Shown here: positions 3,210 through 23,805 of the stretch, one piece after another
Layout of the letters: each line of letters starts with the position of its first letter
How positions within the stretch are numbered: position 1 is the stretch's first letter
Assembly: GCA_003152165.1 (NCBI GenBank)
Contig: PLZO01000081.1
Location: forward strand, 4,621 to 37,326
Reading direction: 5' to 3'
Length of the DNA stretch: 32,706 nt
Origin: Chloroflexota bacterium
GTDB lineage: Bacteria > Chloroflexota > Limnocylindria > Limnocylindrales > CSP1-4
Made by a program: the position numbers and the translations under genes
The notes under the pieces: model-generated
The model's database searches: none
What the model saw: the letters and a program-made list of their open reading frames with translations, nothing else
Told to the model about the DNA's origin: nothing

Positions 3210-3285
3210 TGGTGGAGCTACGGGGATTCGAACCCCGGACCTCTTGCATGCCATGCAAGCGCTCTGCCAGCTGAGCTACAGCCCC
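3210..3285 (-). tRNA. tRNA-Ala (anticodon GGC)
   Basis: A 76-nt cloverleaf read on the minus strand. The acceptor GGGGCTG pairs with TAGCTCC and includes the G3:U70 wobble, the main identity element of alanine tRNA. The anticodon stem CTTGC/GCAAG closes the loop ATGGCAT, giving anticodon GGC for GCC/GCU codons. The T arm has GGTTCGAATCC. The discriminator is A and the 3' CCA is encoded. It lies directly upstream of leuS. Confidence 0.97.
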
Positions 3286-3304: not shown

Positions 3305-3397
3305 GCAGCGGGCCCGGCTCGATCCGGCGGGGCACCCATTCGGTCAGTCTCACCGATTGCCCGGTGCCATTGTCAGGATCATGTCAGGCCAAATCGC

Positions 3398-3403
3398 TAG
3401 ACT
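3398..3403 (+). promoter_or_regulatory. Putative -10 of the arylsulfotransferase-like gene
   Basis: TAGACT lies 7 nt before the ATG at 3411, so the transcript would begin at or next to the start codon. There is no Shine-Dalgarno. A TTGTCA at 3370-3375 is 22 nt away, too far for a standard spacer. The call rests on position and similarity to other starts in this window. Confidence 0.35.
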
Positions 3404-3410
3404 TGGGCCG

Positions 3411-4964
3411 ATGAGCACGCCCGACTCAGCTGCAGGCGGCTGGACCCGTCGGCGGTTTCTGCAGGCCGGCGGCGTTCTCATTGTCGGCGCCACCGCGCTC
3501 GGTGCGGTCGCGATCGAGGCCGGCTCGGCAGGTGCTGCCCGGAGCAGCAGCCCGTCTCCGGCTGGTTCAGCCGCCCAGGTGGTTCGCCGTCGCTATCGCT
3601 CTCGTCCGGATCTCAGTTCGGCGCCGGTGGCGGTGGCTGCTCCGGTCGGCGCGGTGGCACCCGGCCTCGTCTTCCTGACCCCCAACAATGGTCTGGCTCC
3701 TGACGGCCTGCTGGTCACCGATAACGCGGGCAAGCCGGTTTGGATCCGTCCAGACACCGGTTCGTATGCGGCAAATTTCCGGGTGGCCCAATACCGCGGC
3801 AATCCCGTCCTGACGTGGTGGGAAGGCAGCGTGAACGGCGGCTACGGATCGGGCCAGCTGGTCATCGTCGATGACACCTACACCGAGCTTCTTCGGTTCG
3901 GGGCCGGCGCCGGGCGCAAAGCCGATATCCACGAGTTCCAGATCACCCCCCGCGAGACCGCCCTGATCCTGACCGATCTGGCGGTCCCGAACCCAGCTGG
4001 GGCGACGCCTCCGCCCTGGCAAAATTGGGATTGCGTCGTGGAGGAGGTCGACATTGCTACAGGCACCCTCCTGTTAGAATGGCATAGCGCCGACCACATC
4101 GCGCCAGACGAGTCGGTCCTGCCGGCTCCGACGACGACCGCCAGCCCCGCGGCGACCACTAGCGCAGACTCGACCGCTGCACCGGTCGAGGCGGTATACG
4201 ACACGACCCACGTCAACGCCATCGAGCAGGATACCGACGGCAACCTGCTGGTGTCGGCGCGCAATACCTCGACGGTCTACAAGGTCGACCGAACGACCGG
4301 CGCGATCCTGTGGCGGCTGGGCGGCACGAACTCCGATTTCCAGATGGGCGACGGAGCCAAGTTCGCCCTGCAGCATGACGCGCGCCGGCACCCCGATGGG
4401 ACGATCACGATCTTCGACGACGGCAGTGGGCCCGGCACGTCGCGGGCGATCGTTCTGAACGTCGACGAGGTGGCGAAGACGGCCACCCTGGTTCGCTCGT
4501 ACCTCCATCCCCATGCCAAGATGGCGATGAGCCAGGGCAACATGCAGGTCCTGCCCAACGGCAACGTGTTCGTTGGCTGGGGCAGCACGGGCTACGCCTC
4601 GGAGTTTTCGGCCGATGGTCAACTCCTGTTCGATGCCGATTTCAGTGGCTCGATCCAGTCCTACCGCTGCTTCCGCTTTCCCTGGATGGCGCGTCCGACG
4701 GCGCAGCCGGCGGTGGCCGTCGATCCCCCCAATAACGGCACCGTCACTGTCTATGCCAGCTGGAACGGCGCCACCGAGGTCGTCACCTGGGAGGTCATGA
4801 GCGGGGCTGATCCAAGTCAGCTGGCCTCTCTGGGCACATTTCCCCGGACGGATTTCGAAACCGTGCTTGCCGTGAAGCCGGGCGGTCCGCTGCTGGCCGT
4901 CCGAGCGCTCGACGCAAACGGGATGGTCCTGGGCACTTCGGCGGCGGTGACGCTCCAGGGCTAG
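3411..4964 (+). CDS. Exported arylsulfotransferase-family protein (Tat signal)
   Basis: A 517-residue protein with a twin-arginine signal near the N-terminus (TRRRFLQAGG, a hydrophobic stretch, then AGSAGAA), so export in folded form is expected. The mature part has the repeated beta-propeller signatures of the ASST family: THVNAIEQDTDGNLLVSARN, STVYKVDRTTGAILWRLGG, FALQHDARRHPDG and IFDDGSG, then MAMSQGNMQVLPNGNVFVGW. This family transfers sulfate between phenols in characterised members; many homologues, including this type, have no proven activity. A Thr/Ala/Pro-rich linker sits near residues 240-262. I chose ATG 3411 because the Tat motif then lies about 10 residues in; in-frame ATG 3381 and TTG 3357 are alternatives. 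No operon partner is evident. Confidence 0.85.
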   Translation: MSTPDSAAGGWTRRRFLQAGGVLIVGATALGAVAIEAGSAGAARSSSPSPAGSAAQVVRRRYRSRPDLSSAPVAVAAPVGAVAPGLVFLTPNNGLAPDGLLVTDNAGKPVWIRPDTGSYAANFRVAQYRGNPVLTWWEGSVNGGYGSGQLVIVDDTYTELLRFGAGAGRKADIHEFQITPRETALILTDLAVPNPAGATPPPWQNWDCVVEEVDIATGTLLLEWHSADHIAPDESVLPAPTTTASPAATTSADSTAAPVEAVYDTTHVNAIEQDTDGNLLVSARNTSTVYKVDRTTGAILWRLGGTNSDFQMGDGAKFALQHDARRHPDGTITIFDDGSGPGTSRAIVLNVDEVAKTATLVRSYLHPHAKMAMSQGNMQVLPNGNVFVGWGSTGYASEFSADGQLLFDADFSGSIQSYRCFRFPWMARPTAQPAVAVDPPNNGTVTVYASWNGATEVVTWEVMSGADPSQLASLGTFPRTDFETVLAVKPGGPLLAVRALDANGMVLGTSAAVTLQG

Positions 4965-5070
4965 CCCCAGATCACGGCTCGTTCCGGCCGACGATCCGCC
5001 TGGGATCGCGGCGGAGAAATAGATGCCCCGAGATAGCCCGCTCGGGTGAGTCGCCCAGGGAGTCTTGCGT

Positions 5071-5931
5071 GTGGCACCATCGGCGGGTGATCCCGCCCGT
5101 GCCCGCCAGGTGACCAGCCCGAGCGAGCAAGCCGCCGAGCTTGCCCTGCCCGGTGGCTCGCTCGACTACATCCTGCGGCGTTCAGCCCGGGCTCGGCGGG
5201 TGCGGGTGACGGTCGACCCGTTGCGCGGGGTGATCGTGACCGTCCCCGCCCGCCGACCGGGTGCCCGGGATGCGCTGGCCTCGGTGGAGTCGTTCCTGCG
5301 CGAGCGCGAAACGTGGATCCGGACCCATCTCGTTCGGCAGGCCCGCCAACGGTCCCGGGTGGCGGGCTTGACCGCTGGCCTCGCGGCAGGCGAGCTCCGC
5401 GACGGGGCCCTGTTGCCATACCGTGGCCGGGCTCACCGGATCCGGATCGTCGGCCCACGCAGAGACCTGGCCCGATCCGGTGTCCGGATCGAGGATGCCG
5501 ACGTGCTGGGGACCAGCCGCACGATCATTCTCGAGCTCGCGACTCGCGATCGGCGCCGCCCGGCCCGGATCCTCGAGGCCTGGCTGCGCGGCCGCGCGGT
5601 GATCCAGATCGAGGCCGTGATCGCCCGCCATGCGCCTGGCCTGGGCGTTCATCCCTCGGTCGTCGTGATCCGCGATCCGCGCAGCCGTTGGGGCAGCGCT
5701 TCGCGGACGGGCCGGGTGGCGCTCAGCTGGCGGCTCATCCTCGCGCCGCCAGAGGCCCTGGAAACGACCGTCGTCCACGAGCTTTGCCACCTGCGCGTGT
5801 TCGGCCACGGCCCGACGTTCTGGGCACTCGTCGGATCGCGCCAGCCGGACCATCGGCACTGGCGGCGCTGGTTGCGCGACCACGCCGTCGAGCTCCATTC
5901 GGTCCTCGCCGAGGATCCTGCCTCAACCTGA
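5071..5931 (+). CDS. YgjP/DUF45-family metallopeptidase-like protein
   Basis: A 286-residue soluble protein. The N-terminal part (LDYILRRSARARRVRVTVDP, then VTVPARRP) and the C-terminal zinc site (RWGSAS, then VVHELCHLRVFGHGPTFWALV) are the hallmarks of the YgjP/DUF45 family. HELCH supplies two histidines and a glutamate, and the second conserved histidine is in FGHGP. These proteins resemble M48/SprT-type metalloproteases, but a substrate is not established for most. I chose GTG 5071 because AGGGAG at 5057-5062 stands 8 nt before it; TTG 5065 in the same frame is too close to that site. Residues between about 100 and 190 are the less conserved middle. It stands alone, 106 nt after the previous gene. 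Confidence 0.88.
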   Translation: MAPSAGDPARARQVTSPSEQAAELALPGGSLDYILRRSARARRVRVTVDPLRGVIVTVPARRPGARDALASVESFLRERETWIRTHLVRQARQRSRVAGLTAGLAAGELRDGALLPYRGRAHRIRIVGPRRDLARSGVRIEDADVLGTSRTIILELATRDRRRPARILEAWLRGRAVIQIEAVIARHAPGLGVHPSVVVIRDPRSRWGSASRTGRVALSWRLILAPPEALETTVVHELCHLRVFGHGPTFWALVGSRQPDHRHWRRWLRDHAVELHSVLAEDPAST

Positions 5932-6524: not shown

Positions 6525-6600
6525 TGGTGGAGATGAGGGGACTCGAACCCCTGGCCTCCGCGATGCGAACGCGGCGCTCTGCCAGCTGAGCTACATCCCC
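6525..6600 (-). tRNA. tRNA-Ala (anticodon CGC)
   Basis: A 76-nt cloverleaf on the minus strand. The acceptor GGGGATG pairs with CATCTCC and again has G3:U70. The anticodon stem CCGCG/CGCGG closes the loop TTCGCAT, giving CGC for GCG codons. The T arm has GGTTCGAGTCC. The discriminator is A and CCA is encoded. It shares its D-arm sequence with the tRNA-Ala at 3.2 kb but differs in anticodon and T stems. Confidence 0.97.
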
Positions 6601-23011: not shown

Positions 23012-23042
23012 CGAGGTTTCGGCTTTGTGTCGCTAAACCTCG
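23012..23042 (-). terminator. Weak hairpin at the rpsT stop
   Basis: CGAGGTTT and AAACCTCG form an 8-bp stem with a 15-nt loop that overlaps the last codons of rpsT (stop 23033-23035). No T-run follows. It could end either convergent transcript; the support is modest. Confidence 0.35.
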
Positions 23043-23734
23043 GACTTCTTGGCCGAAGTCTTGGCGGGAGTCTTGGCCCGGGCGGGAGCCTTGGGCGTGG
23101 CCACCTTTGTCGGGCTCTTGGCGGCCGCCTTGGCAGCCGGGGCGGTCTTGCTCGCGGTTTTGGTGGCGGCGGCCTTCTTCGTCGCTGCGCGGGCCGGCTT
23201 CGCCGACGTGGTCGCGGTCCTGGACTGGACCTTGGACTCGGCCTTGGCTGCGGCTGCCGCGGCGCTGGCAGCTGCCTCGGCCCGGGCGGTCTTGCTCAGG
23301 GCCGCGCGAGCCTTGCCAGCGGCCGTCTGAGCACCCTTGGCCTTGTCCGCCTTGGCCAGCGCGATGCGCGCCTTGGCGGCCTTCCCGGCCGCGGCCTTGC
23401 CGGTCGTCTTGGTCAGCTTCGGCGCGGTCTGGACGTGGGCGCCACCGAGCGCTGCGTTCACCTTGCGCGTGAGCCGTGACTTTCGGCGGGCGGCGGCATT
23501 GGCATGGATGGCGCCGGCCTTCGCGGCTCGATCGAGCGCGCTCAGCGCGTCCTTGAGGGCTTGGACCGCGTCACCGACCTGGCCACCGGTGGCGACCTTG
23601 ACGGCTTTCGAGACGAGCGTCTTGGCGGCGCTACGGCGTGGCTGATTGACCTCCGCCCGGCGCTCGGCGGTGCGCACGCGCTTGAGCGCAGAGGGAGTTC
23701 GAGCGCCGGTCCAGCCGCGGGGCTTCCTGGCCAA
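23033..23734 (-). CDS. rpsT: 30S ribosomal protein S20 with long Ala/Lys-rich tail
   Basis: Residues 14-97 match S20: SALKRVRTAERRAEVNQPRR, then AVQALKDALSALDRAAKAGA and IHANAAARRKSRLTRKVNAA. S20 binds 16S rRNA at the bottom of the small subunit and is normally about 85-90 residues. Here the protein has 233, because about 135 residues of Ala/Lys/Thr/Pro repeats follow (AKAD, KAAATK, TPKAPARAKTPAKTSAKK), resembling histone H1 or mycobacterial-type basic tails. The tail is probably disordered and nucleic-acid binding; this is inference. I chose TTG 23734 because GAGG lies 7 nt upstream; TTG 23740 in the same frame is too close. A TGGTACCAT extended -10 stands about 72 nt upstream. Confidence 0.9.
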   Translation of the reverse strand: MARKPRGWTGARTPSALKRVRTAERRAEVNQPRRSAAKTLVSKAVKVATGGQVGDAVQALKDALSALDRAAKAGAIHANAAARRKSRLTRKVNAALGGAHVQTAPKLTKTTGKAAAGKAAKARIALAKADKAKGAQTAAGKARAALSKTARAEAAASAAAAAAKAESKVQSRTATTSAKPARAATKKAAATKTASKTAPAAKAAAKSPTKVATPKAPARAKTPAKTSAKKSEV

Positions 23735-23805
23735 GTTCAAACCTCATGGATGCACGAGACGGGCTGCCGGGGGTGCTCAGGGTACGACCCGACAAGGGCG
23801 GGCGA

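Follow-up and report, generated by a model that had tools for sequence, protein, structure and literature searches.

The only bS20 found in this Chloroflexota genome carries, after a canonical S20 core, a conserved module under purifying selection as strong as that on the core itself, followed by a disordered distal tail which keeps its composition and charge but not its sequence. As constraint on the module equals that on the ribosomal protein to which it belongs, it probably has a real role on the ribosome. We consider it likely (probability about 0.6) that the module docks on the 30S subunit near bS20 and strengthens its assembly or the link between the 5' domain and helix 44, and that the tail makes loose contacts with RNA. 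The gene and its parts are placed as follows within the window, meaning the whole stretch of 32,706 nucleotides analysed.

23033..23734, minus strand: rpsT, encoding bS20 with a C-terminal extension, 233 amino acids plus a TAG stop, TTG start codon
23742..23745, minus strand: Shine-Dalgarno-like GAGG upstream of the TTG, with a GAGG-like stretch upstream in most of the relatives inspected
23699..23734, minus strand: lineage-specific N-terminus MARKPRGWTGAR, residues 1-12, called by the pattern PRxWxGARTP
23450..23698, minus strand: S20 core, residues 13-95, a three-helix bundle (Pfam/NCBIfam, AlphaFold, Foldseek)
23411..23449, minus strand: variable linker, residues 96-108 (identity 0.35; pLDDT < 50 at 105-108)
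23270..23410, minus strand: new conserved module, residues 109-155 (identity, dN/dS, phylum scan, AlphaFold)
23036..23269, minus strand: distal disordered Ala/Lys/Pro/Thr-rich tail, residues 156-233 (low identity, dN/dS, pLDDT)

The sequence-only reading had located the gene at 23033-23734, which is the right position, with the strand now corrected to minus. On that strand the open frame covers 23033-23740 (235 codons, stop at 23033-23035). The TTG at 23734 (MARKPRGWTGA...) is most likely the true start, giving 233 amino acids, because the GAGG lies just upstream and both the start and the N-terminus are conserved in relatives. Nearly all of the latter begin at the same position with TTG, sometimes GTG or ATG, and open with a conserved MAxxPRxWxGARTP. 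A non-AUG start, UUG, is likewise used by rpsT of E. coli (PMC10931766). The PRxWxGARTP pattern is common to the window's family (f1), family f2 of the same order (with Tyr for Trp) and family f5 of the same class, and R6, G10, R12 and P14 are invariant in an alignment of 73 sequences.

The identity of the core is clear. Residues 13-95 of the 235-residue frame match PF01649 over the entire profile (1-83 of 83) with 72.3 bits against a curated cut-off of 29.5, and the TIGR00029 match (70.8 bits, cut-off 33) places the protein in bS20. Its sequence relatives in the PDB are nearly all S20 chains, the best being from Thermus, and Thermus S20 is also the best Foldseek match of the structure model, in which most of the core has a pLDDT of 94-98. 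The core aligns over its full length with the canonical Thermus thermophilus S20 (PDB 1fjg chain T; 47% identity by structure), but the Thermus chain has 106 amino acids compared with 233 in the window protein, which adds the N-terminal arm, the module and the distal tail. Only one S20 match was found in the genome of the window (assembly 92% complete), and as the sole S20 the protein would have to serve the ribosome.

Within the window rpsT is divergent from a lepA-(CPBP)-hemW-hrcA-grpE-dnaK block, and lepA-hemW-hrcA-grpE-dnaK surroundings are usual for this gene. The left part of the window encodes an arylsulfotransferase-like protein (3357-4964, plus strand), a YgjP-like metallopeptidase (5065-5931, plus strand) and two tRNA genes (3213-3285 and 6528-6600 (-)).

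About 138 residues follow the core in the same frame, more than doubling the protein as had been read from the sequence alone, and the absence of a frame break was confirmed: the frame is free of stops and codon-position GC is uniform across core, module and tail, with GC3 values of 0.88, 0.89 and 0.86, respectively. The description of these residues as a histone-H1-like tail is apt for the last 78 or so only, since it missed the conserved module within the first 60 or so. An apparent low-complexity tail can thus conceal a constrained module. In the alignment of 73 proteins, identity with the window S20 is 0.68 in the core, 0.35 in the linker and 0.75 in residues 109-155, and falls to 0.36 in residues 156-166 and 0.22 beyond. 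The module consensus is TGKAAAxKAAKARIAAxKAxKAKGxQTAAGKARAALSKxxR, in which TAAGKA (residues 137-142; 23309-23326) is near-invariant.

The module is the strongest evidence of function in the S20 extension. When dN/dS was computed by region in five groups, the module and core values were 0.03 and 0.04 in the window's own genus, 0.09 and 0.12 in g20, 0.03 and 0.14 in g6, 0.20 and 0.21 in g5, and 0.21 and 0.23 in g13. AlphaFold predicts helices at 113-136 and 138-166 in the module region, and two extra helices in both one f1 and one f5 protein, with moderate confidence (block pLDDT about 51-78). A module profile matched 42 of the 399 genomes sampled from the phylum, all of them in f1 and f5 and all within S20 or S20-fragment frames, and found no match among PDB sequences. 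Pfam and NCBIfam searches of the window protein returned S20 alone above cut-off and no family for the module. Duplication of the core hairpin is not supported as its origin, with a probability of 0.1% between the module and core profiles in hhalign. Searches of the open-access literature turned up no account of an S20 extended in this way.

In E. coli, S20 is reported to be non-essential. It is known that bS20 contacts both the 16S 5' domain and helix 44, that in its absence mRNA associates more slowly and assembly of the 70S initiation complex is impaired (PMC10931766), and that it becomes structured only once in the ribosome (PMC5074805). In the lineage studied here, the lone bS20 would have been rebuilt with the PRxWxGARTP arm, a basic helical module and, in f1, the disordered Lys/Ala/Pro/Thr tail. 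A fixed 30S site is most likely for the module, given its slow evolution, its basic and helix-prone character and its attachment to bS20. This site would lie beside bS20, on the 16S 5' domain or on helix 44 and its neighbours, where the module would reinforce assembly or the connection between the 5' domain and helix 44. The distal tail would act as a sequence-independent polycation, loosely touching rRNA or mRNA. We also propose, tentatively, that the module may be a new bS20 domain which, on its fixed 30S site, links for example the 5' domain with either helix 44 or a neighbouring protein, while the polycationic tail holds mRNA, rRNA or neighbouring ribosomes; if so, the small subunit of these bacteria would be structurally different. 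Additions to universal ribosomal proteins which are conserved in sequence, and not merely in composition, mark a change in the ribosome itself. A module that evolves at the slow pace of the ribosomal core and has no counterpart in the structure and family libraries searched is a clear target for cryo-EM of ribosomes from environmental lineages.

The distal tail behaves differently from the module. In the window's own genus its dN/dS is 0.37 with 19.6% gap columns, and across the genera analysed the ranges are 0.31-0.40 and 11-20%; its length varies from 41 to 132 amino acids, and the model of the window protein is unstructured (pLDDT about 50) from residue 170. These values, together with 12-nt imperfect repeats in the tail-coding DNA of the window, might suggest that the tail has for the most part no adaptive value, being a GC-rich KAP repeat that is prone to slippage and drifts in length beside a module that alone is functional. 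The lack of a basic distal tail in f5 points the same way, as does one genome (G001, KatS3mg065; loci L062 and L202) in which the module is intact and the distal tail, in a shifted frame, is Arg/Gly-rich, reflecting either a genuine frameshift or an error of assembly. We regard this explanation as rather unlikely, because composition and charge are tightly held: in 92 proteins 89% of the tail is Lys, Ala, Pro, Thr or Ser, the Lys plus Arg fraction is 0.225 +/- 0.027, and longer tails carry more charge (Spearman 0.84). Both other frames of rpsT contain stops whereas the real frame has none. Nor does the tail look like a product of genome-wide drift, as no equally strong Lys/Ala/Pro/Thr stretch was found in another protein when 1.14 Mb of the window's genome, roughly one third, was read. 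The stretches closest to it there were Pro/Thr linkers and the Ala/Lys-rich C-terminal end of an RNA methyltransferase of the SpoU type (L327:1012-3171, contig C9), whose N-terminal part is long and of low complexity.

The window's family comprises 107 genomes in 27 genera, 101 of them with an S20 match. Nearly all of the intact loci fetched from it have 100-205 residues beyond the core, and the motif [QR]TA[AV]GKA[RK] is found after the core in 98 of the 100 loci read, twice (L025 and L033) in the variant QTAVGKA; the two loci without it (L063 and L097) have unread bases at the site. The extension is therefore family-wide, and the normal-length S20 that had been named as grounds for doubt was not seen in close relatives. 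Beyond f1 the picture varies. Members of f2, with genomes of about 1.1 Mb, have a basic tail of 34-76 amino acids and no recognisable module, which indicates that at least one lineage can do without the module. The f5 proteins have the module and then a short, roughly neutral end of 13-26 amino acids. In f3 and f4, also of the same class, S20 is of normal length, stopping 3-12 residues past the core, and most of the S20 proteins sampled in the rest of the phylum are of ordinary length. In the phylum as sampled, module-bearing S20 is limited to a single large clade of uncultured Chloroflexota from soil and groundwater.

Some members of f8, another family of the phylum, have S20 tails of 20-85 amino acids and others only 4-6. 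In three of them (L384, L386 and L387, from G211, G430 and G498) the tail is 65-85 amino acids long, Lys/Ala/Glu/Pro-rich and, as in the window protein, basic and placed after the core; these tails differ in having no TAAGKA module and frequent acidic residues. Two contigs binned as Proteobacteria and Steroidobacteraceae (L219 and L224) bear the Chloroflexota type of S20 described here and are likely mis-binned. The presence of two S20 genes in one genome (G099), of which one is of f5 type, is likely due to contamination.

The C-terminal domain of histone H1 and the KAP-rich tails of some HU proteins have a composition like that of the distal 78 residues of the window S20. In keeping with this, the extension could have a second, extraribosomal role in which it binds DNA like H1 or HU in the nucleoid and replaces HU. 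HU/IHF (PF00216) was undetected in the window's genome, and within the class it was found in none of 95 genomes of f1, f2 and f5, which have the basic extension, compared with 21 of 22 genomes of f3 and f4, which do not. On the 16S tree, however, this pattern amounts in essence to a single split and so provides no independent replication. HU is missing from 214 of the 399 phylum genomes sampled, and in the HU-less families f9, f36, f39, f46, f61 and f87 S20 ends 3-13 residues past the core; in f8 some members have S20 tails and others do not. Because so many HU-less Chloroflexota have a normal S20, HU replacement was rejected as a general rule despite the complementarity within the class. Furthermore, S20 is single-copy, and the window protein, unlike histone H1 or HU, is joined to a ribosomal protein, with no H1 globular or HU domain above the Pfam and NCBIfam cut-offs and no Pfam histone match. 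A DNA-binding role is thus improbable, and the suggestion that the tail reaches DNA finds no direct support. That the extension is an artefact of assembly or annotation, arising from a frameshift or from reading beyond the true stop, has next to no chance of being correct, for although most assemblies are drafts and the frame is broken or contains unread bases at a few loci (L063, L097 and L034), the survey of relatives refutes it: 98 of the 100 loci read, from 27 genera and many independent projects, share the extension, which has the codon-position GC and dN/dS of a coding gene.

Returning to the extension as a part of the ribosome, the 16S tree separates f1 and f5 from f3 and f4 with a support of 1.000. 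No 16S gene of f2 was found in the search, and the placement of this family rests on kinship given by genome tools. In the simplest history, the N-terminal arm and the module would have been gained once, before the split of f1, f2 and f5, and f2, with its small genomes, would have lost the module. The basic distal tail has been less stable, being present in f1 and f2, absent from f5 and found separately in some f8. Compensation by the module for a change in 16S rRNA was considered and rejected, the 16S genes of f1, f5 and f4 being of about equal length. Between f1/f5 and f4 neither the 5' domain nor the 3' end showed a change in length for which the module would compensate, the surroundings of the bS20 region were likewise free of indels, and the h6 spur region of f1 differs from that of f4 in sequence and is of the same length. 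It was also observed that the 16S gene of one f3 genome (L297, G118) is interrupted close to the 790 loop by about 276 nt that look like an intron or intervening sequence.
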